Shown piece after piece: positions 28,309 through 51,485 of a DNA stretch of 64,000 bases (position 1 is the first letter of the stretch; each line of letters opens with the position of its first letter). The stretch comes from Sphingobacterium thalpophilum (GTDB lineage Bacteria > Bacteroidota > Bacteroidia > Sphingobacteriales > Sphingobacteriaceae), in NCBI RefSeq assembly GCF_901482695.1, contig NZ_LR590484.1, forward strand, positions 2,790,001 through 2,854,000. The letters run 5' to 3'. The notes under the pieces are model-generated. The model was not told the origin of the DNA, made no database searches, and was given only the letters and a program-made list of their open reading frames with translations. The translations under genes were made by a program, and so were the position numbers.

Positions 28309-28490
28309 GTTTTGTTCAGAAATGGAGTAAATAACAACTGATTTTTAGCGATGTTTATACAACAGGATTAACCCCTGATAAAATATCCCGCAATCAATCA
28401 GTGCTTTAGTTTTAAAATTGCATAAAGCTCTTGACAAATTAAAAAAATGATTCGATATTTGTGCCACACAAAACAAAGGTGATACCTTTT

Positions 28491-28564
28491 CGGGGTGTAG
28501 CGTAGCCCGGTATCGCGCCACATTTGGGATGTGGAGGTCGTAGGTTCGAATCCTGCCACCCCGA
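28491..28564 (+). tRNA. tRNA-Pro(TGG), copy 1
   Basis: A 74-base cloverleaf: acceptor stem CGGGGTG/CACCCCG, anticodon stem CCACA/TGTGG with loop TTTGGGA (anticodon TGG at 28525-28527), T-loop GGTTCGAATCC, discriminator A, no encoded CCA. A near-consensus -7 box (GATATTTG) lies at 28454-28461. Two identical tRNA copies are at 47042 and 49387. This one marks the left edge of the lipid-synthase region. Confidence 0.97.
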
Positions 28565-28571
28565 CATAAAA

Positions 28572-28748: not shown

Positions 28749-29339
28749 CTATCGGCCTGAAGAGAGTCTTTCCTCGCTTTGTGTCTCAGTTGGAGCTTGC
28801 TCAGCCGGTATTTCGTCCATGGTCAAGGTGGGTTTATACAGATGTTTCCTTAGTCTGCGTATGGGTAAATAGGTGAATATTACCGAAAGCAGCCCTGCAA
28901 GCAGGGCATCGAGAGCTGCCATGGCCGTTGCATTCAATTTGTAGTGAGCTGTTAGGCTGTATTGTGCGAAAAGGAGGCAGGATAGTACCAAAAGTCCGGT
29001 AACCAGGCCATGGGCAATGCACAGCCTGGTAATAAAAGCATGGCGTTTCAGTTTATCGTCCACCGCCAGCGCAATGGATTTCTGTTCGATGGCCACAATG
29101 ACGCGCTTGATGATGTCCATTGTCAGGACAACAGGCAGAAATATCGCCATGGGCAGCGTTAATCGGGCAAGGCTTTGGTGACCGGCGAAAAAATGGGTGT
29201 ATCCAAGCTCCTGAAAACTGGCATAAGCGATCAGGAAGTTAAAACAGACGTTGGGAATAATATAGTATATTACACGCTTTCTCAAAAAGTGGCGGAGTGT
29301 CGTTTTCTTTATTTTTTTTGGTGGTGATGCTGTTATCAT
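28749..29339 (-). CDS. Four-helix membrane protein ending the lipid-synthase operon
   Basis: A 196-residue protein with a basic N-terminus and four hydrophobic stretches: YYIIPNVCFNFLIAYASF, LPMAIFLPVVLTMDIIK, LVTGLLVLSCLLFAQY and ALDALLAGLLSVIFTYLP. The last gene of the operon, 7 bases after a PapA-like acyltransferase. No transporter family is recognised. It could help place or move the finished lipid in the membrane, or anchor the assembly line, but no function can be read from the sequence. Confidence 0.75.
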   Translation of the reverse strand: MITASPPKKIKKTTLRHFLRKRVIYYIIPNVCFNFLIAYASFQELGYTHFFAGHQSLARLTLPMAIFLPVVLTMDIIKRVIVAIEQKSIALAVDDKLKRHAFITRLCIAHGLVTGLLVLSCLLFAQYSLTAHYKLNATAMAALDALLAGLLSVIFTYLPIRRLRKHLYKPTLTMDEIPAEQAPTETQSEERLSSGR

Positions 29340-29346
29340 TCGTATG

Positions 29347-30594
29347 TTATAGCGATGTCAATAATGCAATTGCCTGTTCTTTAATTCTGTTCGCTTCATC
29401 CTTCGGCAGAAAATCTTCGTGCGACATCAACGAGAAGTCCATTTGATCCCGGTAGGTCGTTGTTACCAAGGTATTCGCATTTAGCCAAGGGAACGCTACT
29501 GTAGGACTAAATACGCTTTCTACACTGAAATTTTTGAAATGGACCGGGATCTGTATCCGTCCCATATTCGATAAGGTGATATCATGCCCACCCCGGCTGG
29601 TCTGCAGCATTGCAATCATACGGTCCACAAGCGGATGTAGCTGTTCGCCTAGCCACAAAAGTTCACGGGCATTTATCTTTTCCATTTTTTGCAGCAGCAT
29701 TGCTTTAAGATACACAGCATTTTTCAGTAGATTATATTCACCTTTTTTTAGAGAGAGCTCGACGGTAGGAGCGAAAGCGAACATGTGATCCTGCCTGATT
29801 TCCGGAATAAAATGTCGGATATCTACCGGACTGATAACCTTATTTTTTGCCTTTTTCCCCTGTATATTCTGAAAGGCTTGCATGAACGCCGCGCATAAGG
29901 CGGCATGCACCGTTATCCCCAGCGTTCTACAGCGTTCTGTTATATTAGCTGTAATTTGCGGTGATAGCTTCCAGTGAAGCGCATAGTTTCGGCCAACATT
30001 TTTCCGCTTGCTTTTGCGTTGCAGGAAAAAGAGCAGTCGTGCCATGACTAAGTAGAATTTTGCCTTGCGGGATTTTTTAGTCAGGTTAAATCCTTCCGGG
30101 AGGAATTCGTCGACTGATCCGAAAAGGGAGTACGGTGGCAGATGCGCCGTTGGGTCGTCTAGTAGCGACAGGAGTTCGCGCATCAGGGTGACAATGCTTG
30201 TGCCATCACATATGCAATGGGGCAGTACCCACAGGAGTTCGGAGCAATGCTGCCCTTTGATCCATAGCAGCTCGGCAAGGGGTCGCGTCGTATCCTTAAA
30301 AGAGTGATACCATGCTCGCTCCGATGCCAATAGCCAGTCCGTCTCCGTTTGGCGTTCGATTACACGAAGCGGAATAGGGGGCATGTTCTCGTGGACGACG
30401 AAAGTAGGCTTAGCTGCGGCGGTGTCGATAGATGACCGCAGTAGGGGGTGTTTTTGTTGGATTTTATCCAGTGCGTGCTGAATATCTTTGGCAGCTAGGA
30501 TACCTCTAATTTTTGCAGCAAATACACAGTTTAAAGGTGTCTCCGCATCCACATACATGATCCGTTCCACCATCATTAATGTTCTCCTGATCAT
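29347..30594 (-). CDS. PapA-like condensation-fold acyltransferase 2
   Basis: A 415-residue protein of the condensation/PapA/wax-ester-synthase-type acyltransferase superfamily. The active-site block at residues 125-131 is PHCICDG: the first His of HHxxxDG is Pro, but the second His (the catalytic one) and DG remain. The C-terminal QMDFS block stands where NRPS C domains have DFGWG. Such enzymes move an acyl group from a carrier protein or CoA to a hydroxyl or amine. It overlaps the preceding paralog by four bases (ATGA). With it, two acylations of the lipid product are possible. Confidence 0.8.
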   Translation of the reverse strand: MIRRTLMMVERIMYVDAETPLNCVFAAKIRGILAAKDIQHALDKIQQKHPLLRSSIDTAAAKPTFVVHENMPPIPLRVIERQTETDWLLASERAWYHSFKDTTRPLAELLWIKGQHCSELLWVLPHCICDGTSIVTLMRELLSLLDDPTAHLPPYSLFGSVDEFLPEGFNLTKKSRKAKFYLVMARLLFFLQRKSKRKNVGRNYALHWKLSPQITANITERCRTLGITVHAALCAAFMQAFQNIQGKKAKNKVISPVDIRHFIPEIRQDHMFAFAPTVELSLKKGEYNLLKNAVYLKAMLLQKMEKINARELLWLGEQLHPLVDRMIAMLQTSRGGHDITLSNMGRIQIPVHFKNFSVESVFSPTVAFPWLNANTLVTTTYRDQMDFSLMSHEDFLPKDEANRIKEQAIALLTSL

Positions 30595-31859
30595 GATGCT
30601 GTCTGATAATCTATTTGTTGTGTTATGGAATCAATGATGGCATCACGGATGGCCATTGCTTCCGCTTTTGGAAGATAGCCTTCACTTCCCACAAACGAAA
30701 AATCCATTTGCTCCTTAAATGTGGAGGTGACCAAGGTTGTTGTATTACCCAGAGGGCCGATGACGGAAGGGCTGAAAATAGCTTCAAGGCTGAAGGATTG
30801 GTATTGATCCGGAATATGAAGACGTCCCAGGTTCGAAAACATGCAGTCGTTGGACGAGCGGCCCCGTTTAAGTAGCCTGGTAAAGTTGTGCAGCGCGTCG
30901 TGGGCAGACTCCATGACCATCATTGTGAGGTAGGGATTCAGCTTGGCTGTTTTACGGTTCACTGCTGCCTGCATGATCTGCAGGTTGTCGACCGGAGTTC
31001 GCTTGCGGTCTGACGAAAGCACAATCATCAGCCCGAAAGCAAAGATATGGTCATCTTTAACCTGCGGAGCAAAACGGCGGATATCTACCGGACAGGAAAC
31101 CTTGTTGAAAGCTGCGGCCCCACGTATTTTGTGGAATGCATCCAGTATGGTAGAAGCCAAAAAAGTATTGACCGTAACCCCCAGGCACTTGCAATAGGAG
31201 GCCAACCTCCGGCTGATGGACTTGTTGAATTTCCAGTGGATCAAATAGTCCGCCTGTCGGTCGGCTGCTTTTTTGCGGACGGGGATGTATTTTATGGCGA
31301 AGGCGGCCAAACGGCCGATTAATTTGGCCTTAAGCTGTACCGATTTATTCTTTAAAATATCTGCGGGTACGACATCCTGGATGCCGCCGATAGGCTGTTC
31401 GTGCCCGATGAATGCTGCTGGATTGTCCAGCACTTTTAAGAACGCGTACAACAAAGCCATTGCAGAGCCACCGTCACAGAGGCAATGGTGAACTACAAAA
31501 AGCATATCGGAAATCTCTTCTCCCCGGATCCATACAAAGCGAACCAGAGGTGCCTGATGATCAAAAGGGGAATGCCATTCTCGTATGGATTCCTCCTGCC
31601 AATGCTCTTCGCTGGCTCGCCGTACTGATCGTACCGGAATAGGCACGGTCAATTCAGATACTTTGAACCAAGGAGCATTTCTCTCGTCATAGGCTATCAG
31701 GGCCCGTAACCAGGGATGTTTTTCCTGTAGTCTGTCCAGCGCATGTTGGATATCCTCTTCCTTAAAAATGCCCCGTAGACGAAAAGGAATGACTGCATTG
31801 AAGGGTTCGGTTCCATCGCCCCATAACATACGTTCGCCAAATAATAGTCTTCTTTTCAT
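30591..31859 (-). CDS. PapA-like condensation-fold acyltransferase 1
   Basis: A 422-residue protein with the complete HHxxxDG motif (HHCLCDG, residues 124-130) of condensation-domain acyltransferases. The C-terminal part shares the QMDFS block and overall layout with the next gene, so the two are paralogs. In mycobacteria, PapA proteins with this fold esterify polyketide chains onto sugars or diols. Position right after a double glycosyltransferase, with a gap of only two bases, suggests it acylates the glycosylated product or off-loads the chain from the ACP. The acyl donor is unknown. Confidence 0.82.
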   Translation of the reverse strand: MKRRLLFGERMLWGDGTEPFNAVIPFRLRGIFKEEDIQHALDRLQEKHPWLRALIAYDERNAPWFKVSELTVPIPVRSVRRASEEHWQEESIREWHSPFDHQAPLVRFVWIRGEEISDMLFVVHHCLCDGGSAMALLYAFLKVLDNPAAFIGHEQPIGGIQDVVPADILKNKSVQLKAKLIGRLAAFAIKYIPVRKKAADRQADYLIHWKFNKSISRRLASYCKCLGVTVNTFLASTILDAFHKIRGAAAFNKVSCPVDIRRFAPQVKDDHIFAFGLMIVLSSDRKRTPVDNLQIMQAAVNRKTAKLNPYLTMMVMESAHDALHNFTRLLKRGRSSNDCMFSNLGRLHIPDQYQSFSLEAIFSPSVIGPLGNTTTLVTSTFKEQMDFSFVGSEGYLPKAEAMAIRDAIIDSITQQIDYQTAS

Positions 31860-31861
31860 TT

Positions 31862-34267
31862 CTATAATTGCACCAGTGCGGTACGTTCTTGTTCGACAAA
31901 ATCTTCCAGTAAGGCTACTGCCCGGTCGTTGCCACCCGCAGTCAGGAAAGTTGCTTGCACCGCTTTGGCCGCGATCCTATATTTCGGGTTTTCAAGTAGC
32001 TCAAACACGGTGTCCCGTAAGGCTTCGATGCGTAGGCGCTTATATCGGATACTGAGCCCGCAACCCGACTGCTCAATCAGTCTGGCTGTATGGAAATGAT
32101 CATAAGCGATAGGAGTGATCAGCATAGGTAGTCCGTTCGTAAAAGTATCGTTCACAGTGTTAAATCCACCGTGACAGATAACCATATCCATATGCGGCAT
32201 CAAGGCTGATTGAGGCACAAAACTGCTGACAATAAAGTTGGATGGCCATTCTTCAAATATTTCCGGTGCGGTGGCCGCAACAATTGTGACAGGCTGATCC
32301 GCAAAGGCCTCGATAAGCTTTCCGAAAAATGCCTTTCGGATATCGACCAGCAGCGTGCCTAAGGAGACGAATATCCGGGGCGTTGTACTGGCTTCAAGCC
32401 GTTCCCAGTCGAAAGCTGCATTGTTGGGCCGTCCTTTTACCGGGCCGACAAACTTCATATGTGCAGGCGCGGTTTCGAACCCTGCAAAAGCCTGTGATGT
32501 GAACACCAGGTTTAACCGGTGGGAATGGATAAAGATACCTTCATCAGAGATACCCACAGCCTTTTGCAGCTCTTTGATCAGATTTTGCTGCCACTCAAAT
32601 ACCTTTGGTGCATTTTTCTCCGTGTCGCCCATCACATCCGGGGGGACCGGAGTTGTTGTGACACAGGGTATCTGATGTTTGTGCGCAAACAGCGCTCCAC
32701 CAAAGGTGATGCAATCGTTGATAATCACATCGGGCTGCCATTCACACATTAACCTCTCTAGTCCGGGCATCATCATCTTGGCAATCGGAACATAGGTCTC
32801 TTCGAGCGCCAGTTTCATCACTTCAGGACCGGAGCAGGAGGGGCCATCATCCTGGCGCTTTAGGATATACTGCAGTTCTTCCTCAAAGGGTGCCAGTTCC
32901 GCCTTAGGATAGATGTAACGACCACCTGCGGGGATGTGCTGATCCGCCAGTGGCGTAATACCGAACCATCGGACTTCATGTCCACGTGCAATGAGGCTGG
33001 CACCTACGCTCAAGGTCGGACTGATGTGTCCGAAAAAGGGAGGGACGACAAACAGGAACTTTGCTGGTTTGTCTGCGGCCGCCGGTATGGGAGCAATAGC
33101 ACGCTCGAGGAGGTCTGCAGCTGTTGCTGTGCCTCCAGCATCTGTAAAAGACTGGCGTACCCTGCCTGCAGCCTCGCGGTAGGCGGGATTATTCAGTATG
33201 TTGTAGGTGCTGTCTCTGAGATGATGGGCTTTAAATCGGTTAAAATTGAGTCGCTCACCAGCTCCGGTACGTACCACTCGTCCGGCGACATGCGACTGAT
33301 CATAAGCAATGGGGATCACGACGAGCGGTAGGCCTTGAGAAAGCGTTTCGGACACCGTATTATGGCCGCCATGACATATAACAGCATCCAGATGTGGCAA
33401 CAGCTCCAGCTGCGGAACCTGCTGACAGACCATAAAGTTTTGCGGCCAGGTGTCGAAAAGCTGTGGGTCTGAGACAACAACGACGGTGAGGTCCTCGTTT
33501 CTGAAAGCTTCGATCACCTTTTGAAAGAATGCGCGCTTATGATCGTGGTCAAAGGTGGTTCCTATGCTGACGAGAATTTTCTTCGCCCTGCCAGCATGGA
33601 AGGTATCCCAATCAAAGGCATGTCCAGAGTGGCGTTGGCTGAGCACAGGGCCCGTAAAGTGGTAGTTTGCTGGCAGGTCCATTTCCCCGAAGAAGTAACG
33701 GGAGGTGAGGACAAGTGTGAGCAAATCGGAACAATCCAATGGCCGATTTTCCGTCACCCCCAGTTCCCGCTGCAGAGCCATAATCTGCTGTACTTCCCAT
33801 TCATGTACTTTTGGCAGTTCGCTGACGATTTTAACCGCCGCGGGCGCCGTCACTGTAGTAGCATGAGGTAGTCCAAGCTGCGTCGCCGCGATTGATGCTG
33901 CAAAAAGCTGGTGGTCACCGATAACCAAATCGGGATTATACGATTCCAACAGAGCAAGGATGCCCTTGTAGCAATGCCGGTTTAAAGGAACCAGTACTTC
34001 CTCATATAAAAACTTGATGCTATCAATGCCATAAACGACTTTCTTTGAGATAATATCAAGATATTTTTTACTTTGTTTTTTTTCGTCGTCAGTCTGGTCG
34101 TATTGTATCAACAACAGTTGTCCGCCATCCGGAAGTTTTGCGGACAGGGCTTGGTCGAGACTGATCCAGGCAACCTGATGTCCTCGTGCCAGCAAGGCAG
34201 CGCCAATGCTTAGCGTTGGATTGACGTGACCTGTTAATGGTGGGACAACAAATACAAATTTAGCCAT
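31862..34267 (-). CDS. Tandem fusion of two GT1 (MGT-type) glycosyltransferases
   Basis: An 801-residue protein that is two complete GT-B glycosyltransferases head to tail. Copy A begins KFVFVVPPLTGHVNPTLSIG; copy B begins near residue 399 with KFLFVVPPFFGHISPTLSVG. Each has its own C-terminal nucleotide-sugar block: CHGGHNTVSETLSQGLP in A and CHGGFNTVNDTFTNGLP in B. The MGT/UGT family transfers sugars from UDP- or TDP-sugars to macrolides, polyenes, carotenoids or lipids. Two differing active sites in one chain suggest addition of two sugars. Overlaps the hydrolase gene by eight bases. Confidence 0.88.
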   Translation of the reverse strand: MAKFVFVVPPLTGHVNPTLSIGAALLARGHQVAWISLDQALSAKLPDGGQLLLIQYDQTDDEKKQSKKYLDIISKKVVYGIDSIKFLYEEVLVPLNRHCYKGILALLESYNPDLVIGDHQLFAASIAATQLGLPHATTVTAPAAVKIVSELPKVHEWEVQQIMALQRELGVTENRPLDCSDLLTLVLTSRYFFGEMDLPANYHFTGPVLSQRHSGHAFDWDTFHAGRAKKILVSIGTTFDHDHKRAFFQKVIEAFRNEDLTVVVVSDPQLFDTWPQNFMVCQQVPQLELLPHLDAVICHGGHNTVSETLSQGLPLVVIPIAYDQSHVAGRVVRTGAGERLNFNRFKAHHLRDSTYNILNNPAYREAAGRVRQSFTDAGGTATAADLLERAIAPIPAAADKPAKFLFVVPPFFGHISPTLSVGASLIARGHEVRWFGITPLADQHIPAGGRYIYPKAELAPFEEELQYILKRQDDGPSCSGPEVMKLALEETYVPIAKMMMPGLERLMCEWQPDVIINDCITFGGALFAHKHQIPCVTTTPVPPDVMGDTEKNAPKVFEWQQNLIKELQKAVGISDEGIFIHSHRLNLVFTSQAFAGFETAPAHMKFVGPVKGRPNNAAFDWERLEASTTPRIFVSLGTLLVDIRKAFFGKLIEAFADQPVTIVAATAPEIFEEWPSNFIVSSFVPQSALMPHMDMVICHGGFNTVNDTFTNGLPMLITPIAYDHFHTARLIEQSGCGLSIRYKRLRIEALRDTVFELLENPKYRIAAKAVQATFLTAGGNDRAVALLEDFVEQERTALVQL

Positions 34268-35042
34268 GGTGTTGCAATAAAGTGTTAGATAAAAATTGAA
34301 TGATAGCCTCCGCGAGCTTTACCGGCTCCTGTATCGGGATGTTGTGATCACCGGGAACCAGCTGAAGCTGCGCCGTGCTTATTTTGGAAGATAGCCATTC
34401 GCCCGCCTGCCTACAGTTGGAGTTAGTCCCATAGAGCAGCAGGGTGGATGCGGGAAGCCTGTCGGTATCCATATCACGCAGAAAATACTGCTCCCTGACC
34501 ATATCGGATTTGATGCTGGTCTGGTGAAACAAGAACTCATAAAGGCGGTGGTTTTTTTCAAACTGACGTTTACCCATCTTCAGTTTTGTCGTATCGGTAA
34601 AATTGGCGATATAATGCGCCAAAAACTCTTTGCTATATTCATCTATGATATGGCGCGCCTTCTCATCCTGTGGATCTGGAGCTTCCATCACAACTAAACC
34701 TTCAATCCGCTCTGGAATCCGCAAAGCCGTTTTCAGCGCGATCAGACCACCAAAACTATAACCCGCGAGATAGACTTTCTGGAGATGAAGAGTATCCAGT
34801 AATCCGTTCAGATCGCAAGCCATGCTATCGAGATCATAACCATCGCGTGTGCGCTCGCTCAGACCATGACTTTTGAGGTCATAAAGTACCACGTGAAAAT
34901 GCTGTGCCAGGATCGGAGCGATATGAAAATAATAAATGGACAGGTTGCTGAACATACCGTGGATCAGTACCACAGTATGTTCGGCACCCCGGTTCAGTTC
35001 CTGCACATGAACGTTCCTATTGTTGACCGTGATTATTGGCAT
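34260..35042 (-). CDS. Alpha/beta-hydrolase (thioesterase-like) of the lipid-synthase operon
   Basis: A 260-residue alpha/beta-hydrolase: oxyanion region LIHGMFSN, nucleophile elbow GYSFGG with Ser96, and C-terminal catalytic His in GDHNIPIQEP. In this setting, between the ACP and glycosyltransferase genes, it may release the finished chain from an ACP or edit stalled chains. A true thioesterase assignment cannot be made by sequence alone. Overlaps the ACP gene by ten bases. Confidence 0.82.
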   Translation of the reverse strand: MPIITVNNRNVHVQELNRGAEHTVVLIHGMFSNLSIYYFHIAPILAQHFHVVLYDLKSHGLSERTRDGYDLDSMACDLNGLLDTLHLQKVYLAGYSFGGLIALKTALRIPERIEGLVVMEAPDPQDEKARHIIDEYSKEFLAHYIANFTDTTKLKMGKRQFEKNHRLYEFLFHQTSIKSDMVREQYFLRDMDTDRLPASTLLLYGTNSNCRQAGEWLSSKISTAQLQLVPGDHNIPIQEPVKLAEAIIQFLSNTLLQHHG

Positions 35043-35332
35043 TCGTAGATATAATTGATGATCATACGAAGGTCCAGATTGATCAGCTGATCCAGATCCA
35101 TGGAGGACAACCAGCCCGTGAAATCGATCTGATCGCCAAAATGAGCTTTTATTTTCTCTGAAAAGGAAACGATCTCAATGCTGTCCATTTCCAGGTCTTT
35201 TGTGAACGAGCTTTCCGGTGTGATGTCCATTTCTTCGACGAATTCCTCTCCGATTACCTCTGTGATAAAGCCTTTCAATAAGGTAAAGAGTTCGTCGTGG
35301 TTCATTTTTAATGCGGTATTTAAAGTGTCCAT
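35033..35332 (-). CDS. Free-standing acyl carrier protein
   Basis: A 99-residue ACP with the phosphopantetheine-attachment serine in DLEMDSIEIVSF. The ATG at 35332 lies inside the end of the upstream megasynthase gene (13-base overlap); the ATG at 35305 (MNHDELFTLL) would give 90 residues and fits ACP starts better. Its DSIE differs from the DSIK of the two built-in ACPs, so it may serve a separate step such as supplying a starter or a second acyl chain to the PapA-like enzymes. The adjacent PPTase domain can activate it. Confidence 0.85.
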   Translation of the reverse strand: MDTLNTALKMNHDELFTLLKGFITEVIGEEFVEEMDITPESSFTKDLEMDSIEIVSFSEKIKAHFGDQIDFTGWLSSMDLDQLINLDLRMIINYIYECQ

Positions 35333-38300
35333 CCGATAATATAATTTTGATGTTTGATTGTTTTGATTTCTATTTGATTAATCCAGAGGTGATCTCCCTC
35401 GATGCGCTCTACCTGATAACGTTTTGGGTTCCCTTGGAGGCCTGTGCCCATATATTTTCCATAAGCTTCTTTCGCGGTCCAGAAGCGCGTCGTCCATTCG
35501 GCCTGATCCTTATCCTTTAGCAATGCCTGTTCAGCATCTGTAAAAACCAGCGGATAAAATCCAGCGCTGCGCTCTTCAATAAGCTCCATGTCGATGCCGA
35601 CAGGTTTGCCCTGTTGTGCAATCGCCACCGCGTCTCTGCCCTTATGGGCCAAGGAGACATGGATATCTTCTGTCATGTCCCCATGGAGATAAGGTCTGCC
35701 GACTTCGTTGGAGCGAATCTCAAACACGATGGGATAACAGGGGCTATCTTTATGCTGTGTCAACAGATGTCGCACAGCATCTTTGACCGCCACGCGGCCC
35801 ACCATCCAGCTTTTTCTGCGGTTGGGCAACAGCCGTTGGTAATACTGCTTTTCGGTTTGGTTGAAATAGCGTTTAAGAATGAAGTCCCACGATGCTACCC
35901 GGGTGTAGGCCTGGTGAAAATAAAATATGCCCGGGGCGATTTCCTCGGAAAGCCTATTGTGTAAGGGCGACATGGATACGTTCCACAGAGCAACGTCGAT
36001 TTCCAGTCGTCGGTTTTGCCAGCCCCGGATGGCGCACCACACTTTTCCCTCGCGAAGCAGGGTGATGTCCGCAACTGCAAATTCATCATTGAGCTCGGTT
36101 AGTACACAGGTACAATCGAATAGGCCATCCTGATCGTGCATAGCGTCAAAAAACTCTATTTCTTTGATCTTAACAGGAAAAGCGATGCGGTCTTTGGCCA
36201 ATGTAAGCTGCAGCCACAAGCCAAACAGCTGACCGGCGTTGTCCAATAAAGACCCTTTCCCGCCGTTGCCTTTGATTTTGCCGGAGATGCCTCTTTCGCC
36301 TACCGCCCTGATTTCCAGAATGCCTTGATAGGCTGGCCCGTGAAACATATGTTTCTCATAGATTTCTTCCGGAGTCCGGGTAATGGAAAGAAGCTTTCCA
36401 ATGGACAAGTCCACGGTAGGCGGTACAGGCCATGTATCTGCCAGCAGTACTTCGGCATTCGCAAAATTTTCGATTTCTACAAAGGCATGATGAGCCGAAC
36501 GCCATTCTCCGTTGGCCGTCTTCTCAAAAGGCTGCGCTACATTCATCCACTGAAAGACGCTGACCTGCATGATTTTGTGAATTGTGGTCTGCGGTCGTTC
36601 TGCCTGAGCAATTTCGGCCAGCAGCTCAAAAATCATCGTCATGGGAATGACCGGTTCCATATCGGCAACTTCTGTCCAGCCTGCTGGCTGCCGCAGGAGA
36701 CTATGGTCGATCAGGTAAGGATGGCTGTCCAGACTGACCTTCAAAGCTGTTGAAAAATGTGTGCTGGAATGGAGAACCGCCGATAAGCTAGATGGGGGAT
36801 CCGGTGCTAGCACAGTGGACTGCATCCGGTTTTGGAAGGCGGTCAGCACTTCCTCCTGCATGCGCATCATTTCAGCCATATTATCCTGAAATGCCCGTAC
36901 CAGCGGATGTCCTATATTTGTTTTGCTGACCGCCGGCTGCTGCTGGGCGAGATTAAAATACTGTCCCAGGCTTTTGACAGCATCAAAATTACGTACGATG
37001 GGGGATCCCAGCTGCAGTCTGATCCCGTTTGTGGCAGGCTTCTTGACTGCCTGCTGCAGGGATAGGAAATCGAGTGGGACTGTTTTTCCCTCGACAAAAA
37101 GTGCCGCAACGACACGTTGTAGCTGTGCTAGAGCGGAGCGGCTTGTTACACTGGATGCCAGCGTGCTGAATGTTTTACCTTTTAGTGTGTCGTCGATAAA
37201 ACCGGTCAAGCCACCTGTACCCACCTGTATAAAAAAGCGAGCGCCCTCTTCATAGAGCTTTTCTGTTAATTCACGGAAACGGACGGGTTGGACAAGGTGT
37301 TCGGCACTCAGCTGCCGGATCGCTTGCTGGTTTGCCGGATAAGGCTGCAATGTCGTTGCCGACCACAAAGGAATCTTTGTTTGCTGAAAGGTCACCTTTT
37401 CCATGCCGGCCAGAATAAGCTCAAGTCTGTCTGCCACAAAGGGCGAATGGAAACCGGATTGGAACGGTAAAATCTGATGGAAAATCTGTCTGGCTTTCAA
37501 TATTGGAACGAGCTCTTCAAGGGCCGCAATGCTGCCGCATAATATCACTTGATGCGGGCAATTGTCGTTCGATACGTATACATCGGGAATTTCCGCGATC
37601 AAGGGTTGCACTTCTGCCAGACCGGCCCCGATGGCAATAAATTTAGAATCCCTGAGTTCAAAGGTCTTCGGGTCGAGCACATCGATGAGCTGCATGACAG
37701 AACTCGCTTCTGCGAGTTCTGAAGAATATCCGGCAAGCCATTCTCCTAGGCTATGTCCCGCATTCATATCGGGATAGATCCCAAGCTTCTTAAGTGATTT
37801 GTCGAGGATGCTACACCTGTTAAATATATCCAATGCGTCACTCAAAAGGCCGTTTCCCTCTATTTCTATCGGGGCTGCCAGACTAAAATAGCGTTTCACG
37901 GACTCGACCTCTCCCTTGGCCAGGCCATCCAGCCCGGGGAATACAAAGGCGATTTTACCGCCCTGTTGCAACAGCGGGTCGCAGGTGTACCAGATATCCT
38001 GTTTATTTCGCCACGGTTTATTCTTGGAAACGATTTTGATTGCTTTGTCGATCCTGTCTGCTGTGGGGTCGAATACAGCGAGGCGATAGCTACCTTCGCC
38101 CGGATCGGTCTCCTTATTATGCAGTGCGCTGAGCAGCTCGGCGTGGGTGGGGCGAGCAAGTACCAGTACGGGGTCTTTTTTGATGCTATCGTAAGCTTCC
38201 AGTACCACATGTGCGTTGATGCCGCCAAAACCAAAGGCATTTACGCCAGCGACTTTTGGCAACCCTGACCGTGACCAAGGCTTAGCTTCCTGTATAGGGG

Positions 38301-39573: not shown

Positions 39574-39580
39574 GGATATG

Positions 39581-42500
39581 TTACCAATTATTGCCTGACA
39601 TGATTAATACCTGGCTTTCCGTACCGTACTTGATCTCGTTCAGGAAAATTTCCTTTCCTTCTTCCAATGGAATAAGCGATATACCGCGGCGCTCATATTC
39701 TGTTTCCAGCGTCTGCGATACCATACCGGCCCCTTTCCATGGTCCCCAGTTGATCGAGATAACCTTGCCCTTCAGCCGTTTGTTGAGGGTATTGGCATAG
39801 TCGTCGAGCACACTATTGGCTGCAGCATAGTCGGTCTGGCCTTTATTGCCATACACGGAGGCAATGCTGGAAAATAGGACGACAAACTGGCAATCCGGAT
39901 GCAGTTGTTCGGCAAGCACACGCAGTGGTCTTACTTTAGTGTCAAAGACGCGCCCAAAAGAGCTGATCGTTTTTTGTCTAAAGAGTTTATCCTCCAGCAG
40001 GCCGGCACCATGAATGACTCCGTCCAGCTTGCCATATTCCTTATAGATCTGCTGGAGCAAGGCACTTAGCCCTATCTCATCGCACAGGTCCAGCGATTCG
40101 TAAACGACGGTGCTGCCCAGGCTTTCCATTTCCCGGATGGTACGAAGGATCTGGTTGTTCTTAAAGATACGCAAGGTCTCTTTTTCAATCTCTGCTGGGG
40201 TATTTAGCTGCCCAGATTTGATCAGCTGGCTTCTGATCTGATCCTTGGATGTCATCCTCTCCAGTTCAAGAGATGTGCTTGTAGCCAGTCTTGGATCTGG
40301 CGACCGCCCCACGAGAATATAAGTACAAGGGTAGGAGGCCGACATATGCTTTACCAATTCGGCCGTAATCCCTTGTCCACCGCCCAGGACCAGAACTACC
40401 GACTGTTGGTTCAGCTGAATCTGTACTTCCGTTATATCTGCGGATAAGGGGGATGGAATGGTGTCTATGGTATGGCGCTGATCATTTTTGTAAATTACTT
40501 CTACCCGTTTGTCGACGGTCAAAATCTCATTGATAGCGATCTCAGCGATTCCATCAGCTTCCTGAGGAGTTTGTAAGCTGATCAGCCTGCAGTTGGTCTG
40601 CTCAAACTCGCGGGCCAGACTTTTAAATAGTCCGGGGTAACCTTGATAATAGCGTAATGCCTGAGTATCCGCCGATCTCTGGACATGGGCCGGAATATCC
40701 GAAATCAGATACACCCATTTCGTGCGGTCCATGTTCATCTTTTTGATCAGGCCCACATGGTCGATAATGCTACGCTTGACCTTAGCTGAATAGATATCTG
40801 TCATGATTAAGCCATCAAATACCGTCAGGTCTTTTTCGGTATCGAGGACTTCAGCGATGGCCCCATGTTTTTCGAGCATGGTTTTGATTGCCTGTGTTTG
40901 CTGCCCATGGTCAGGAGCAATCGCAAAACGTTTTCCCTGGAGGATATCGGGGGGCTGAGGTTTGCCAGTGGCAGCAGGAGTCAGACCGAAACGTAAGCGG
41001 GACAACGGGCTTTTGGGCGTGGTTTCAGTACCGATATCCGCAATCCAGGTAGCCAGACCGTTTAGTGTTTTAATGGCGGCTAAGGTTTCCATCAGATCCT
41101 CTTTCTGCTCGGGTTCCTTGCCAAATCCCACTTTTGTTTTCAGTGCAGCAATGATTTCCATGCGCTTAATGGAGTCGATGCTGAGATCAGCTTCCAGATC
41201 GAGATCCAGCCCAAGCATTTCTTTGGGATAGCCCGTTTTTTCGCTGACAATATCCAAAATAGCAGACTGTAGTTCGGCCAGTGTGTAACTCTGGGGCTGT
41301 TGGGCTGATGATGTCACTTCGGTTGACAAGGCCTCCTCGGCGATTACCGCAGTACCACTGTGCTCGGTTAGCCAGACAACCAGTCCATTCAATGTTTTGA
41401 TAGCCGCCAGCTGCTCCATGATCGTGTCCTCTTGGCTATGATCTATCGTTAGCGCACCCAGCTGACTGCGTAATGTGCTGATGATCTCAACCCGCTTGAT
41501 GGAGTCTATACTCAGATCTGCCTCGAGGTCCATATCCATGCCAAGCATTTCGGGCGGGTATCCGGTTTTGTCGCTGACAATCTGCAACAACAGGCTCTTG
41601 ACGTCTTTTACCGGTGTTTGGGCAACTACGGTTGCTGCTGGCTGGGCGGTAAACAGTGTCTGGGTGGGGAGCGGCGAGGGCTGTCCGGCACCGGGGAGGG
41701 CAGCTGGAGCTGCATAGGCAGGCATAGGGTTCACTGGCGGCTGCTGGCCGAGAAAGGACAGCATGACATCACGTTGAGCCTGAATGAGCATTTTCATGCT
41801 ATTTAAATATTCGTGTAGCATGCGCTCAGCAGTAGGATGCGCCTCTGGCGCTACGTTGTGGTTAGGGCTTGGTAAGTTCATATGGATCGGTTTCACTAGG
41901 GGCATGGCGCCATTGGCCGGCAGCGGACCGTTGATCGGCAGCGCTGCTTGTCCGTTGACGCGCCATAGGGCAGGACTTTTTTTATACAGATGCGGCTGGT
42001 CAAGCTGAATCACCTGTGTTTGCCGCCCGTCAAATAATTTATGGATATGGAAATTGCGGCCGGTGCCCAAGTATTGAGCAAGCATGCACAGTAAATGGGT
42101 AAGTTTATTCCGGTTGTTGTCTTCGACATAAAGTGTAAGCTGATCCTGTGTCAGGCAGGACTTGGTTAAGCCTGTGAGTACTTTGCCGGGGCCGACTTCG
42201 ATAAATAATCTGGCGCCGTCGGCGTACATGGCCTGAAGCTGTTCGACAAAGCGGACTGGCTGGACGAGGTGCTCGGTCAAGCGTGTTTTTATGGCAGCTG
42301 CCGTCGTCGGATATATACTGGCAGTGGTGTTGGACCAAACGGGAATCTGCATTTCGCCGAAGGGCACATTTTGAAGGACCTGTTTATAGAGGTCTTTCGA
42401 TTTCGCGACCAGGGGGCTATGGAAAGCGCAGGCGACTTCCAGTTTTTTTGCAGATACACGTTCCTGTTTGAGTACGATCATCAATCGGTCTATCGCTGCA

Positions 42501-45500
42501 GTGCTACCTGCGACGACACATTGTGTTGGGGAATTAAAGTTGACCGGATAGCATTCCTCCACCTGGCTGAGAACCGATTTTAGCTTTTCGGTATCCGCAT
42601 GGACAGCGACCATGCTGCCGGGATCTCCATCTTGTACTGCGTCTAAGATTGCCTGTGCACGGCGGTTGCTTAACTCAACCAATAAATCCTCGTCAAATAC
42701 GCCGGCGAAACATAGTGCGGGCAACTCCCCATAGCTGTGTCCCGCCAGCATGTCGGGAACGATACCTAGAGACTGAAGAAATTTTGCTAGGGCGAGGTCG
42801 ACAATACCGAGCAGGGGTTGTGCGATTCGTGTATCTTTAATGGATTCCTTTTGTTTTTTTAAAGTATCCCCGTCGAAAACCATCGCTGGAAAAACAAGTT
42901 TTTCCAGTTCCGGATGTTGGTCCATTAGCTTGCGCATGGCAGGGAAAATGACGAACAGGTCGCGGGCCATGTTGAGGCGCTGGCTGCCCTGACCTGGAAA
43001 TAAGAAGGCGGTTTTACCCGGCAGGGGCTTTACGATAAAGGTATCTTTACTTTCGATTCCGGACAGTACCAGTTCGATCTTCATGCTCAGATCTTCTGTG
43101 GTGTCGGCAACAATGCTCAGTTGCACAGGTTCCTCGGTGGCGGTTGCCAAGCTATAGGCAATATCTTTTAAGGGCAGACTGTCGTTGATCTCGAGCAGTG
43201 TTTTTACCTGTTTCAGTTGCTTTTTCGCATGTTCGTAGCTTGCTCCGCGGAAAACAAACAGTTCCGAAGGCCAGGATTTCATTGTGATATCGCTGGTCGG
43301 TCGCGGATGACTGGCAATGACAGCATGAAAATTCGTGCCCCCAAAGCCGAAGGCGCTTACGGCAGCATAACGTTTTTGTTCTGTCCACAATCCTGTTTCG
43401 GCGTGAAAGGCAAAAGGACTGGTCTGTGCGTTGTAATACGCGTTCGGTTGCTGCAGGTGGAGTGTCGGCGGTTTTATCCCGTGAAATACGGCCAGTGATG
43501 CCTTGATCAGTCCGGCCAGACCTGCTGCGCATTTGGTGTGTCCGATCTGTGTTTTTACAGATCCGAGCAGTGTCTGGGCGGGCAGGGCGCCGGCGCGGCT
43601 AAATAAATTGGTGAGGGCACTGAGCTCGGTTTTGTCGCCGACGACAGTGCCCGTGCCATGTGCTTCCACCAGGCCAACAGTAGCAGCACTGATACCGGCT
43701 TGGCTATATGCTCGTTCCAGGGCCCTTACCTGGCCTATTTTGCGGGGTGCGGTTAGCCCCAGCGCCTTGCCATCGCTCGACCCGCCGACACCTTTGATGA
43801 CCGCATAGATGCGGTCGTCATCGCGTACCGCGTCGGCATACCGTTTCAGTACCAATATGGCTATCCCTTCGCCCAGTGCGATGCCGTCAGCTTCGCTGTC
43901 GAACGTGGCACAGCGCCCTTTGCGCGAGAGCGCGTGAGTGCTCGAAAACATCAGATAATCATTGATACCATTGTGTAAGTCAGCGCCACCGGCGAGGACC
44001 ATGTCCGATTTGCCGAGCACCAGTTCCTGACAGGCAAGGTCAATTGCCGCGAGAGATGAAGCACAAGCTGCATCTACGGTGAAGTTGCGGCCGCCGAGGT
44101 CCAGCCTGTTGGTGATGCGGCCTGCAATGACATTCGCCAAGATGCCCGGGAAAGAATCTTCTGTTGTATGGGGCAATGCCGCTTTGACTTCGTCATGCAG
44201 TTCCCCAAAGACCTGTTTATAGTATCCCCTGAAGCTATAACTGTTAGCCAGATCGTTACCGCCTTCAGCGCCGATGATGACCGAAATATTTTCTCTGTCG
44301 ATCTGTTTTTCACCATATCCGGCATCTTCCATCGCCCGTTTGGCAACGAGGAGGGTCAACAGCTGGGTGGGCTCTATTGCGGCCAGTGACTGAGGCGGTA
44401 TCCCGAATGCGAGTGGATCGAAATCTATGTTGGGGATAAATCCGCCCCATTTAGAATGCGAAACATCGGGGCCATCGACGTCGGGCTGGTAATAAATATC
44501 TTTGTTCCAGCGCTCGTCGGGTACTTCGGTAACGCTATCCTTTCCGAGGACAATATTGCGCCAGTATTCTTCCAGATTTTTGGCTCCGGGGAAGATACAG
44601 TCCATACCGATGATGGCTACATCTAGTGCCTGGTCCGGCGACTCAGGCTGTTCGGGCAAAAGTGCATCTTGGATATACTGTTTATTTCCGGTGGCGACTT
44701 GCTGATGGAGGCAGTCGATGGAGGTGACTTTATCGTGCATTGTGGCTACCTGTCCGATCATATACATACCCAATTGGAGCTGTTCATTTCTCGGAATGGA
44801 GATGAGTTTATCGCCTTGCCGATCAACCCCTTTCGCCGCAATTCGAAGACGGCCGACATTTAATTTTTCGAGCTCTTCCCAAATCAGCTTCTTGTCGATC
44901 CCCGCTGCAAACAATCTAGCTTTCTCCTCACTGAAATATCGGGCGAAGGCCGTATTGAGGCAGCGTGTTTCATGTCCCGGCGCGGTTTCCAGTAGGACAG
45001 TGTCTTTGGCGTGCATCGCCTGTAACTGAAATTCCTCCTGAATGGCGCCCGTGTTTACCGCTTCTTGTGTGTAGAGGTATGCGGTTCCCATCAATACCCC
45101 CACTTTGACGCCTCTGGCAGTTAGGGGGGCTGTCATGACCGAGACGAAAGCGGCGGATAAGGCGTCATGTATGCCGCCTGCAAAAAATACGCTTATGTTT
45201 TCAGGATGATCTTCTTTGAGGATTCGTTCGATCTGTTTTTCCCAGAGCACCGTACTGGACAGCGGCCCCACATGGCCGCCGCATTCGCGGCCTTCGAATA
45301 TGAAGTTTTTGGCTCCTTCTTTGAGAAATATATCCAGTAATGCGGGGGAAGGGACGTGAAGGAATGTGGTGATGCCCGCTTTCTCGAATATTTTCGCCTG
45401 TGCAGGTCTGCCTCCGGCAATCAATACTACAGGAGGTTTCGCTTCGAGGATATATGTACGCTGTTCGTCGCGCAGTTCCTGCGGTGCAAAGCCCAAAATA

Positions 45501-46558
45501 CCTACGCCCCAGGTGTTGTCGCCGGCAAGCTCCTTGGTTTGCCTGATCAGATCTTTTGCCTGCTGGCCACGCAGCAGCGAGAGGGCAACAAAAGGCAGTG
45601 CACCCGCTGATGCCACGGCCTGAGCAAAGGCAGGGACATCGCTGACGCGAGTCATGGGCCCCTGTGCAATAGGGTAGCGCAGTCGGAGCTTTTGTGCCAG
45701 CCCATTGTTCTCGTCGATAGGTGCCAGCTCTTTGGCCTGTTTCAGATGGCCATACATGGCTTCTCTGAATCCAAACATAAGTTTTTTCAGGCTGTTGAAA
45801 TCCTGATAAAGGTCGTTTGCCAAAGCGATGTCCTGTCCCATAGGGATATAGCTGCAGGCAGGGTCAAGATTTTTGAAATGCTGCCTGAGCTCTTCCACAT
45901 CCGGCTGTTCCGGCAGGGCAGGCGAATTTGGACGTACCAGTACGCGGTAGCCTGCGATAATCCTGGTTTCCGTGCCATTTAATTTGCTGCAGAGATCCTT
46001 AAAGTCTCCCGGAACACTGCTTTCTGGAAAGAGGGCCAGCTGGCTGTCCAGAACAACTCCTGTGGCTCCCAAAGCTTTTGCTGCAGCTGCAGTATGGAGG
46101 CCGACACCACCCTGTATCCAGACCGGAATGTTCCGGATGACCCGGATGATGCGCTGGAAAAGTATAAATGTTGATTCGTAAGCGGTCAGACCGCCCGCTT
46201 CGTTCCCTTTTATAATAATTCCTGCAGCTCCCAGCTGTTCGGCCTGTATGGCTTCATCCACGCTGCCTACCTGGTAAATGATGGACTTGGCAATTTCTGG
46301 ACGATATTTTGCATCAAAAGGAAGGATGACAAGTTTTACGTTCTCGGGAATCTGTAGCGACAGTAGCTGAGCATTTGGAAAACAAATTCCATAAGGGTAT
46401 AAAGCAGTCCGATCGAGCAGTTTCAGTGCTTCCCCGGCATTGGCTAAGTCGTGTCCCAAACTTAGTACGGGAAATGCACCCGCCTGATGCAGTTTGGGCA
46501 TTAGGTTGACGTCAGGCTTTTCAAAAGGTGTTAATCCAATAATGGTTAAATTTTTCAT
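39581..46558 (-). CDS. Megasynthase subunit with tandem ER-like flavin domains, KS, AT, 2 ACP and KR
   Basis: A 2325-residue synthase counted from the ATG at 46558; the ATG at 46594 adds 12 residues that look non-coding. Two nitronate-monooxygenase/PfaD-like flavin domains lie at about 1-225 (GGVGLHTAAAAKALGATG) and 285-600 (PIAQGPMTRVSDVPAFAQ, FEGRECGGHVGP). The KS (about 650-1080) has Cys832 in VDAACASSL; the AT (about 1160-1480) has Ser1275 in AGHSYGE and the malonyl-type AFHS. Two ACPs carry Ser1686 and Ser1796 in LSIDSIKR, close to PUFA-synthase ACPs. The KR (about 1870-2325) has GGGQGITAELV and Tyr2244 in DYAAANS. First gene of the operon. Confidence 0.92.
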   Translation of the reverse strand: MKNLTIIGLTPFEKPDVNLMPKLHQAGAFPVLSLGHDLANAGEALKLLDRTALYPYGICFPNAQLLSLQIPENVKLVILPFDAKYRPEIAKSIIYQVGSVDEAIQAEQLGAAGIIIKGNEAGGLTAYESTFILFQRIIRVIRNIPVWIQGGVGLHTAAAAKALGATGVVLDSQLALFPESSVPGDFKDLCSKLNGTETRIIAGYRVLVRPNSPALPEQPDVEELRQHFKNLDPACSYIPMGQDIALANDLYQDFNSLKKLMFGFREAMYGHLKQAKELAPIDENNGLAQKLRLRYPIAQGPMTRVSDVPAFAQAVASAGALPFVALSLLRGQQAKDLIRQTKELAGDNTWGVGILGFAPQELRDEQRTYILEAKPPVVLIAGGRPAQAKIFEKAGITTFLHVPSPALLDIFLKEGAKNFIFEGRECGGHVGPLSSTVLWEKQIERILKEDHPENISVFFAGGIHDALSAAFVSVMTAPLTARGVKVGVLMGTAYLYTQEAVNTGAIQEEFQLQAMHAKDTVLLETAPGHETRCLNTAFARYFSEEKARLFAAGIDKKLIWEELEKLNVGRLRIAAKGVDRQGDKLISIPRNEQLQLGMYMIGQVATMHDKVTSIDCLHQQVATGNKQYIQDALLPEQPESPDQALDVAIIGMDCIFPGAKNLEEYWRNIVLGKDSVTEVPDERWNKDIYYQPDVDGPDVSHSKWGGFIPNIDFDPLAFGIPPQSLAAIEPTQLLTLLVAKRAMEDAGYGEKQIDRENISVIIGAEGGNDLANSYSFRGYYKQVFGELHDEVKAALPHTTEDSFPGILANVIAGRITNRLDLGGRNFTVDAACASSLAAIDLACQELVLGKSDMVLAGGADLHNGINDYLMFSSTHALSRKGRCATFDSEADGIALGEGIAILVLKRYADAVRDDDRIYAVIKGVGGSSDGKALGLTAPRKIGQVRALERAYSQAGISAATVGLVEAHGTGTVVGDKTELSALTNLFSRAGALPAQTLLGSVKTQIGHTKCAAGLAGLIKASLAVFHGIKPPTLHLQQPNAYYNAQTSPFAFHAETGLWTEQKRYAAVSAFGFGGTNFHAVIASHPRPTSDITMKSWPSELFVFRGASYEHAKKQLKQVKTLLEINDSLPLKDIAYSLATATEEPVQLSIVADTTEDLSMKIELVLSGIESKDTFIVKPLPGKTAFLFPGQGSQRLNMARDLFVIFPAMRKLMDQHPELEKLVFPAMVFDGDTLKKQKESIKDTRIAQPLLGIVDLALAKFLQSLGIVPDMLAGHSYGELPALCFAGVFDEDLLVELSNRRAQAILDAVQDGDPGSMVAVHADTEKLKSVLSQVEECYPVNFNSPTQCVVAGSTAAIDRLMIVLKQERVSAKKLEVACAFHSPLVAKSKDLYKQVLQNVPFGEMQIPVWSNTTASIYPTTAAAIKTRLTEHLVQPVRFVEQLQAMYADGARLFIEVGPGKVLTGLTKSCLTQDQLTLYVEDNNRNKLTHLLCMLAQYLGTGRNFHIHKLFDGRQTQVIQLDQPHLYKKSPALWRVNGQAALPINGPLPANGAMPLVKPIHMNLPSPNHNVAPEAHPTAERMLHEYLNSMKMLIQAQRDVMLSFLGQQPPVNPMPAYAAPAALPGAGQPSPLPTQTLFTAQPAATVVAQTPVKDVKSLLLQIVSDKTGYPPEMLGMDMDLEADLSIDSIKRVEIISTLRSQLGALTIDHSQEDTIMEQLAAIKTLNGLVVWLTEHSGTAVIAEEALSTEVTSSAQQPQSYTLAELQSAILDIVSEKTGYPKEMLGLDLDLEADLSIDSIKRMEIIAALKTKVGFGKEPEQKEDLMETLAAIKTLNGLATWIADIGTETTPKSPLSRLRFGLTPAATGKPQPPDILQGKRFAIAPDHGQQTQAIKTMLEKHGAIAEVLDTEKDLTVFDGLIMTDIYSAKVKRSIIDHVGLIKKMNMDRTKWVYLISDIPAHVQRSADTQALRYYQGYPGLFKSLAREFEQTNCRLISLQTPQEADGIAEIAINEILTVDKRVEVIYKNDQRHTIDTIPSPLSADITEVQIQLNQQSVVLVLGGGQGITAELVKHMSASYPCTYILVGRSPDPRLATSTSLELERMTSKDQIRSQLIKSGQLNTPAEIEKETLRIFKNNQILRTIREMESLGSTVVYESLDLCDEIGLSALLQQIYKEYGKLDGVIHGAGLLEDKLFRQKTISSFGRVFDTKVRPLRVLAEQLHPDCQFVVLFSSIASVYGNKGQTDYAAANSVLDDYANTLNKRLKGKVISINWGPWKGAGMVSQTLETEYERRGISLIPLEEGKEIFLNEIKYGTESQVLIMSGNNW

Positions 46559-46594
46559 GCATTGATGATATTGTAATAATAGCAGGGCACTCAT

Positions 46595-47004
46595 AACACG
46601 TTCAGTACTGATCTTGTGCTGATGGGGGATGTTATGGTGGAATAAAAGTAATTAATTTCTGTTATATTTTTAACAATAAAGGTAATTTGATAATGATTTT
46701 TTAATAAAAAAGTAGTAATCGCTTGATTATTATTAACCAACAGGCTACAAATTTATTTAAATTTGGTTTTATGACCATATTTCGATAGTTTATTTGGATG
46801 AAAATTATATTCGATGATATGATGAATAACTAAATGGATAATTTTATCACAAATTTGGTTTAAATGCATCTATGAGATCAATGTTTTCTGTCTGTTTCTA
46901 TGTGCTGTTTATGCTAACGCGCGGGAGGCAGCTTGCATTTCGGTCCGCATATAAAATGGGCGCAGATTTTTGCGTTTGGACTTGCATGCAAACAGTAATT
47001 GCCG
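46595..47004. other. AT-rich upstream region of the lipid-synthase operon
   Basis: About 410 bases between the megasynthase gene and tRNA-Pro copy 2, very rich in A and T, with no credible gene. The operon promoter should be here. The only -7-like box found on the minus strand is CAAATTTA on the plus strand at 46748-46755 (minus TAAATTTG), about 190 bases upstream of the start, with no convincing -33 partner. Confidence 0.4.
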
Positions 47005-47012
47005 TATATTTG
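47005..47012 (+). promoter_or_regulatory. -7 box of tRNA-Pro copy 2
   Basis: TATATTTG matches the Bacteroidota TAnnTTTG consensus exactly and stands 30 bases before the tRNA. The corresponding box of copy 3 is TACTTTTG at 49349-49356. Confidence 0.6.
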
Positions 47013-47041
47013 TGCCACACAAAGCAAAGGTGATACCTTTT

Positions 47042-47115
47042 CGGGGTGTAGCGTAGCCCGGTATCGCGCCACATTTGGGATGTGGAGGTCGTAGGTTCGA
47101 ATCCTGCCACCCCGA
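47042..47115 (+). tRNA. tRNA-Pro(TGG), copy 2
   Basis: Identical over all 74 bases to the copy at 28491, including anticodon TGG, and preceded by almost the same 33-base leader. Followed by the same type of terminator. Together with copy 1 it brackets the lipid-synthase operon. Confidence 0.97.
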
Positions 47116-47211
47116 CCGAGAAGCTCTAACGAAAGTTAGGGCTTTTTTTGTTTCGGGTCAGGAGAGAACCTACGACCTTTTATGGTCCATGAGGTTCGAA
47201 CCGAAGGAGGC
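47102..47211 (+). repeat. 110-bp perfect direct repeat, left copy (tRNA 3' end plus downstream flank)
   Basis: Identical to 49079-49188. It starts with the last 14-15 bases of tRNA-Pro, includes the terminator hairpin, and ends at GAAGGAGGC. A similar but diverged version follows copy 1 (about 28551-28655). Confidence 0.9.
47122..47149 (+). terminator. Terminator after tRNA-Pro copy 2
   Basis: AGCTCTAAC-GAAA-GTTAGGGCT then T7, as after copy 1. Confidence 0.85.
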
Positions 47212-50971: not shown

Positions 50972-51039
50972 ATTCAGTCTCTTTAGTGATTTTTTTAATT
51001 GTTAACTCTGTAATTATTGACGGGAAATGCCCTCGGCAT

Positions 51040-51222
51040 TCAGTCGTCTTTCTGATGCATGTTTTTGTTCTCATGTACCGTCTCCTTAATGATTATTTCA
51101 ACAATTATCTCTGCCATAAATTTAAGAAAATTATCCTGATTTTCAGTACTTTGTGATGAGTTTTTTAACTCTTTTGCAGAGGTTTTTTCAACCGTTTTAC
51201 TTTTTGTTTTGTCATGCTTCAT
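51040..51222 (-). CDS. Small lysine-rich hypothetical protein of the mobile element
   Basis: From ATG 51222, 60 residues, hydrophilic at the start (KHDKTKSKTVEKTSAKEL) and ending in a helical stretch (FLKFMAEIIVEIIIKETV). It lies just upstream of the recombinase gene in the same direction, so it could be co-transcribed. The frame stays open 54 codons further up but the earlier part looks non-coding. No function recognised. The sequence from 51223 to 51485 shows no gene. Confidence 0.45.
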   Translation of the reverse strand: MKHDKTKSKTVEKTSAKELKNSSQSTENQDNFLKFMAEIIVEIIIKETVHENKNMHQKDD

Positions 51223-51485
51223 CCTGCAATAATGAAGCATAAAAAAGCAGGTCTTTGACAACCTGTTGACAAGCCCCCAAACATTATTTTTCGGGGCAGT
51301 TCCTTTGGTGCTTTTTGGGCGTGTCCCGACGTTGACGGGTCGGGCTATCCGTTGCAAGTCCTCGCTACGCTGTGGGCTTTCCACTTCTATCCCTCACGCT
51401 ACCGATTAAGTGTCCGTGAAACCGCAAAAAATCTTTAGCCACTACCCAAGCAGTTGTCAATCCCCGAATAGACTTCCTATCAACT

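Follow-up and report, generated by a model that had tools for sequence, protein, structure and literature searches.

Polyunsaturated fatty acid (PUFA) synthases of the PfaABCD kind (Types A and B) are characterised by a paired ketosynthase and chain-length factor (KS-CLF), a FabA-type dehydratase (DH)/isomerase, a PfaD enoyl reductase (ER) and four to six acyl carrier proteins (ACPs). The heterocyst glycolipid (hgl) pathway, or Type F, follows a secondary-lipid synthase with glycosylation, whilst ArsA of Azotobacter, a Type P enzyme, makes C23-C25 fatty acids that are passed to type III polyketide synthases (PKSs) for alkylresorcinol production (PMC4824345, PMC6274091). A further group, Types M-T, includes Type N of Chitinophaga pinensis and Chryseobacterium gleum (PMC3098273). 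Here, we describe an operon of eight co-directional open reading frames (ORFs), genes 1 to 8, on the minus strand at positions 28749-46594 of a 64,000-nucleotide stretch of the Sphingobacterium thalpophilum genome (hereafter, the window). It encodes two megasynthases, a free ACP, an α/β hydrolase, a double family 1 glycosyltransferase (GT1), two PapA-type acyltransferases and a four-helix membrane protein (Table 1). The operon is real, intact and widespread. Rather than a machine of a new kind, it probably represents a synthase type already catalogued, though still uncharacterised, to which a conserved cassette for glycosylation and acylation is joined. Probably, it provides a self-contained glycolipid pathway whose product would be an acylated, diglycosylated long-chain lipid of the cell envelope.

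A species-level genome collection was scanned once with an alignment of gene 2, yielding 223 relatives, and 80 loci were retrieved from Sphingobacterium, Chryseobacterium, Flavobacterium, Pedobacter and Mucilaginibacter hosts. In 77 of these 80, all eight genes occur in the same order, at protein identities of 27-96%; two of the three exceptions (L058 and L087) end at contig ends and the third (L109) has no match to gene 8. This conservation of order is far above chance, and the catalytic motifs of the KS, acyltransferase (AT), ACP and phosphopantetheinyl transferase (PPTase) domains are intact in almost all homologues. The free ACP is the most conserved component, and conservation is lowest in the PapA pair and in gene 8. 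An earlier note on this DNA, made from the sequence alone, had recognised a one-directional operon of eight genes and proposed a search for its layout elsewhere; the ORFs lie where it placed them and the search recovers the arrangement. Its statement that overlaps and gaps are all below 10 bases holds for the gaps but not for the overlaps, since the junctions from gene 1 to gene 8 measure +7, -13, -10, -8, +2, -4 and +7 bases, giving a widest gap of 7 bases and largest overlaps of 13 and 10. The start of gene 1 also needs revision. In an alignment of eight Sphingobacterium upstream regions the ATG at 46558 is conserved (ATGAAAAATTTAACC), whereas the frame of the one at 46594 is not maintained; for this reason, the true start is most likely 46558, the listed one probably being 12 codons too far upstream.

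Gene 1 passes TIGR02813, the PfaA model, with 1032.8 bits against a cut-off of 1010.1, and agrees with it in the KS and ketoreductase (KR) regions. This match is what speaks for a true PUFA synthase, in which cis double bonds would be retained and the chain then esterified to sugars, but we regard such an enzyme as very improbable here. No CLF was found among the Pfam domains of the operon, and gene 2 carries a single KS with its active-site Cys, followed by an AT, instead of a KS-CLF pair. Neither does any Pfam match in the operon correspond to a FabA-type DH/isomerase, the sole DH being of the PKS type, and the ACPs number two in 79 of the 80 homologues, as against four to six. For the N-terminal 640 residues of gene 1 the FabK model TIGR03151 alone was reported, with no report of the PfaD model, and in a genome search the Chryseobacterium homologues fell under the PfaA cut-off. 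The description in the earlier note of a PUFA-like synthase with a PfaD-type flavin ER and a partly unsaturated product is consequently not supported: the ER scores as FabK-type, and the relatives are of Type P. The tandem DSIK-type ACPs that it reported are present, whilst the KR motif, given as GGGQGI, reads GGAQGI in most homologues.

The DH of gene 2 is not detected by Pfam. However, its catalytic His (PYLIDH; PYLxDH) and Asp (LLDNAGQ) are invariant in 28 aligned sequences, and a predicted model of the region (pLDDT 74) appears most similar in structure to polyketide DH domains (3kg7, E 3e-12), in agreement with the DH originally assigned to the megasynthases. The PPTase at the end of the same protein contains the P1a, x(G/D)xP, and P1b', hShxH, motifs as defined in PMC3098273, the latter reading S[LI]AH in the homologues, and both agree with the Types M-T half of the secondary-lipid synthases (PMC3098273). 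An exact P0 motif does not occur in this domain, the closest string being VRHLLT.

Judged by sequence and domain order, the operon is related to the Type P (ArsA-type) synthases, which make C22-C26 alkyl chains. The Type P systems (ArsA-ArsD) of Azotobacter and Beijerinckia indica share the order of gene 1, with two nitronate monooxygenase (NMO)-like domains followed by KS-AT-ACP-ACP-KR. Plasmid records were searched, which gave both B. indica pBIND02 and the Streptomyces relatives below. On pBIND02, a synthase whose domains follow the same order is 40% identical to that of the window over 1726 residues, and together with a DH-PPTase protein (28%) it surrounds two type III PKS-like genes. The window operon differs in possessing the additional KS-AT half of gene 2 and in its tailoring functions, namely hydrolase, GT and PapA, and no type III PKS gene is present in it or in its flanks.

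Within the existing catalogue, the operon probably corresponds to Type N of C. gleum, itself uncharacterised, because all 34 strong carriers of the PfaA model among 59 Chryseobacterium-like genomes (34/34) have its two-gene pattern. Type N likewise belongs to Bacteroidota and has a PfaA-like synthase with a linked PPTase of the P1b' class; the text of the source gives neither its domain order nor its accessory genes, so that we infer the identity (PMC3098273). The comparison with published synthase types that the earlier note had proposed thus places the PPTase motifs in Types M-T and the operon, probably, in Type N. A glycolipid architecture is also seen in Type F, but this type has a CLF and a P1b motif of the form (F/S)NxSH, where the operon has VSLAH and no CLF, and PapA genes are not described for it in the available text, whilst the operon has two (PMC3098273).

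The same functions recur in a second phylum. Two Streptomyces plasmids (NBC_01243 and NBC_00984) encode a synthase (45%), a KS-AT-DH-PPTase synthase (37%), an ACP, a hydrolase (30%) and a GT1 (35%), then a methyltransferase; these are the first five functions of the window operon, in the same order and at 23-45% identity, with one GT1 instead of two and without PapA or gene 8 homologues alongside. The loci lie on linear megaplasmids (L156, 5195-20169; L157, 15971-30942), and this Streptomyces operon is probably Type M-like. Since five functions are held in common order, synthase-synthase-ACP-hydrolase-GT looks like a glycolipid module spanning two phyla, to which, on sequence comparison, the Bacteroidota version adds a second GT half, two PapA proteins and gene 8. 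Fusion of synthase genes of the same kind was described in 2026 as clusters of fused pfaDA and pfaBC-PPTase in Aquimarina sp. TRL1, Flavobacterium sp. N502540 and Renibacterium (PMC13291983); those of the two Flavobacteriales feed PKS-non-ribosomal peptide synthetase lines, and a GT/PapA cassette is not described for them (PMC13291983).

Two loci of the same family (L149 and L150, 54-55% identity) contain only synthase-synthase-ACP, without the hydrolase, GT and PapA genes, from which it follows that the core and the tailoring cassette are separable. Such separability is consistent with an alkyl or acyl product whose finishing differs from system to system, and the L149/L150 core looks as if it makes a different end product with the same synthase. 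In both (L149, 12904-15518; L150, 2944-6830) the core adjoins a desaturase of the fatty-acid/sphingolipid type and a major facilitator superfamily transporter, a context consistent with a lipid product; in L150 a cyclopropane synthase also lies beside it. Other Bacteroidota PKSs (L142-L146) were rejected as relatives, having different architectures and 25-38% identity in KS-AT only.

The tailoring genes bear on the nature of the product. The two halves of gene 5 are 38% identical and are encoded by separate genes in several relatives. Their donor motifs end differently, in DQ and DH respectively, and homologues maintain the difference. In plant UDP-glycosyltransferases the final residue of this motif influences the choice of sugar and, by analogy, the two halves may use different sugars. 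In the PapA pair, the HxxxDG active-site motif is kept in 79 of 79 homologues, with a systematic split, gene 6 having HHxxxDG and gene 7 PHxxxDG; PH is likewise present in a phthiocerol dimycocerosyl transferase with a solved structure (8s6l) to which gene 7 is similar, and some relatives of the operon carry a third PapA copy. A fold search with gene 8 gave no significant match, and neither gene 8 nor the window genes close to it had a match in a PADLOC scan. The glycosylation and PapA-like acylation genes that the earlier note had seen beside a secondary-lipid-type synthase in a Bacteroidota host are therefore borne out in both domains and motifs.

These components allow a pathway to be proposed. 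The PPTase of gene 2 would prime the ACPs of gene 1, and probably also that of gene 3, and genes 1 and 2 would together act as an iterative type I fatty-acid/secondary-lipid synthase. With two KS, two AT, a KR, a PKS-type DH and a FabK-like ER, this enzyme could, like the ArsA-type synthases, produce long chains in a mostly or fully reduced state, with a hydroxyl perhaps retained where a cycle ends at the KR. The finished chain may then pass to the free ACP, be released by the gene 4 hydrolase, or both. The two GT1 domains, with their strictly kept difference in donor motif, would add two sugars, possibly of two kinds, the PapA-type pair would esterify free hydroxyls of the sugars or the chain, and the four-helix protein could keep the closing reactions at the inner membrane or aid hand-over of the product. 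Two sugars plus one or two acyl groups are plausible. We infer the order of steps, the sugars, the acyl donors and the location and, from the ER and the Type P kinship, the saturation of the chain.

Several points weigh against this glycolipid pathway. No exporter was found conserved alongside the operon. The subfamily to which the GT1 domains are assigned, 'macrolide GT', has members that act on many acceptors. Genes 6 and 7, although of the same HxxxDG family as PapA5 and phthiocerol dimycocerosyl transferase, reach 24.9 and 30.7 bits against the PapA5 equivalog (NCBIfam) cut-off of 396. The Type P analogy covers only part of the machine, as that system lacks the KS-AT half of gene 2.

The GT1 match, 374.7 bits over two stretches against the TIGR01426 (MGT subfamily) cut-off of 260, also lends itself to a different product: a secreted bioactive polyketide, antibiotic or antifungal, in which the GT1 protects the producer or decorates a soluble polyketide and PapA adds short acyl groups. 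Regions of this kind are labelled hglE-KS/T1PKS by antiSMASH, as in Chryseobacterium herbae and S. thalpophilum NMS02, in neither case with a similar known cluster (PMC10459008, PMC11446778), and one paper ascribes antifungal action to such an S. thalpophilum cluster, without testing. The C. herbae region 2.2 (495,527-554,653) contains one of our loci (L068, contig 2 at 512,542-536,777). Nevertheless, a secreted polyketide seems unlikely: one KR/DH/ER set serves all cycles, giving fatty-acid-like reduction, related synthases produce alkyl chains, and no resistance or export gene was found travelling with the operon. Its frequency is also high for a niche antibiotic. Prevalence, counted with the DH-PPTase region of gene 2 as query, is 4 of 395 genomes phylum-wide, 39 of 301 in Sphingobacteriaceae and 89 of 148 (~60%) in what appears, from match level and abundance, to be the genus Chryseobacterium. 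Neighbouring regulator, exporter or carotenoid genes common across genera were not found, and the 'terpene' label of C. herbae was rejected as a general feature. A literature search found no published product of the operon, which is weak evidence as most subscription papers were outside its scope, and the surfactant literature on S. detergens, a carrier, offered nothing usable. The judgement of the earlier note that the combination is uncharacterised agrees with this as regards the product; the layout itself is common and probably catalogued as Type N.

The region upstream of gene 1 contains a conserved block that is probably the promoter region and suggests a single regulated promoter. Such control would suit an inducible structural lipid of differentiated or stressed cells, for example in resting or desiccation, which is a special case of the envelope glycolipid with another role and is, in our estimation, a minority prospect. 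Types F and P, the relatives with known roles, make barrier lipids according to the available texts (PMC3098273; PMC4824345), and heterocyst glycolipids and Azotobacter cyst alkylresorcinols provide functional parallels; on the other hand, no linked conserved regulator was found, and C. gleum is not known for differentiated cell types (PMC3098273). For the envelope glycolipid itself, a fuller proposal can be made, albeit tentatively. It would form a class of its own, new and widespread in Bacteroidota, in which a very long alkyl chain, either saturated or hydroxylated, bears two different sugars together with one or two acyl groups; the synthase-ACP-hydrolase-GT core of its operon would be common to Actinomycetota and mobile between Bacteroidota orders.

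Table 1. Features of the operon and its boundaries (positions in the window)
Feature	Positions	Strand	Basis or remark
Gene 1, NMO/FabK-like ER x2 - KS - AT - ACP - ACP - KR	39581..46594	-	Pfam/NCBIfam; likely start 46558
First flavin-ER-like half	45740..46558	-	Less conserved, 71/270 columns invariant
Second flavin ER half, FabK-like	44639..45706	-	190/356 columns invariant; TIGR03151 5e-42; PDB FabK 9pl0 6e-17
KS1	43313..44623	-	Cys/His/His motifs present in nearly all homologues
AT1	42140..43015	-	GHSYGE
Tandem ACPs	41075..41602	-	LSIDSIKR in each
KR region	39605..40642	-	PF08659 2.8e-32; KR part of TIGR02813
Gene 2, KS - AT - DH - PPTase	35320..39573	-	Pfam/NCBIfam; DH by alignment and model
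Double-hotdog PKS-type DH	35974..36741	-	Alignment A2; AlphaFold model vs PDB DH 3kg7
PPTase domain	35323..35961	-	VGRP (P1a), VSLAH (P1b'); PF01648 1.6e-14; motif definitions PMC3098273
Gene 3, free ACP	35033..35332	-	Pfam; motif LEMDSIEIV
Gene 4, α/β hydrolase, probable thioesterase	34260..35042	-	Pfam; motif GYSFG
Gene 5 half A, GT1	33074..34267	-	TIGR01426; donor motif HGGHNTVSE..DQ
Gene 5 half B, GT1	31862..33064	-	Donor motif HGGFNTVND..DH; conservation
Gene 6, PapA/condensation-type acyltransferase	30591..31859	-	Pfam; motif HHCLCDG
Gene 7, PapA-type acyltransferase	29347..30594	-	Pfam; motif PHCICDG; PDB 8s6l dimycocerosyl transferase 1e-22
Gene 8, four-helix membrane protein	28749..29339	-	Model with four long helices; no family match
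Conserved non-coding block upstream of gene 1, holds TACTTTTA	46631..46717	-	Alignment of 8 Sphingobacterium loci
111-nt direct repeat with tRNA-Pro(tgg) 28491-28565, downstream boundary	28455..28565	+	
Second repeat copy with tRNA-Pro(tgg) 47042-47117, upstream boundary	47006..47117	+	

The history of the operon was followed in a tree and at its genomic site. In the tree, built from genes 1 and 2, the window is placed next to other Sphingobacterium; the sister of this Sphingobacterium group is Flavobacterium araucananum, Sphingobacterium sp. B16 falls outside the group and Flavobacterium seoulense lies within Chryseobacterium. Trees constrained to hold Sphingobacterium, or Sphingobacteriaceae, as a single clade are rejected (p about 0.02). 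The signal is modest, but it points consistently to transfer between orders of Bacteroidota. Base composition was considered as evidence of a recent horizontal gain and rejected. The operon has a GC content of about 0.51 and its flanks about 0.42, but the excess lies mostly in codon positions 1-2 and therefore gives no evidence of recent gain; GC at third positions (0.51-0.56) is close to that of host genes (YidC, 0.505; acyl-CoA dehydrogenase, 0.533) and follows the host in a sister species.

The operon adjoins rplS and is flanked by two near-identical 111-nt repeats. In sister carriers it occupies the same site, again between tRNA-Pro copies, and in non-carriers the site is filled by other genes, on account of which it is a hot spot for insertions within the genus, with cargo that varies by strain. 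A third tRNA-Pro(tgg) copy (49387-49461), with shared flanks, lies near recombinase and conjugation genes. The last ~40 codons of the serine recombinase (49343-50971) read through the antisense strand of tRNA-Pro, and a MobA-type relaxase and a TraG/YWFCY coupling protein follow, up to 56708; an integrated conjugative or mobilisable element thus apparently adjoins the operon (49343-56708). In one genome (G019; L023 and L049) the operon and rplS are on different contigs, tRNA-Pro again being near the operon, which suggests a second site or a rearrangement. Six other Sphingobacterium loci carry a gene for a large tetratricopeptide repeat (TPR) protein between the operon and the distal tRNA-Pro (for example, L043, 1185-3725; L044, 3201-5765). 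It was rejected as part of the operon, being unrelated, convergent to it and missing from the window.

The catalogue of secondary-lipid synthases dates from 2011, and most of its types are still without a product. The operon described here is carried by ~60% of sampled Chryseobacterium species and is scattered among Sphingobacterium, Pedobacter, Mucilaginibacter and Flavobacterium, a range that takes in both soil and clinical Bacteroidota, and it recurs in genome papers as an orphan hglE-KS/T1PKS region. Its conserved cassette makes the question of the Type N product testable, the candidate being an acylated diglycosyl alkyl lipid, and its patchy presence inside genera provides natural pairs of carriers and non-carriers.

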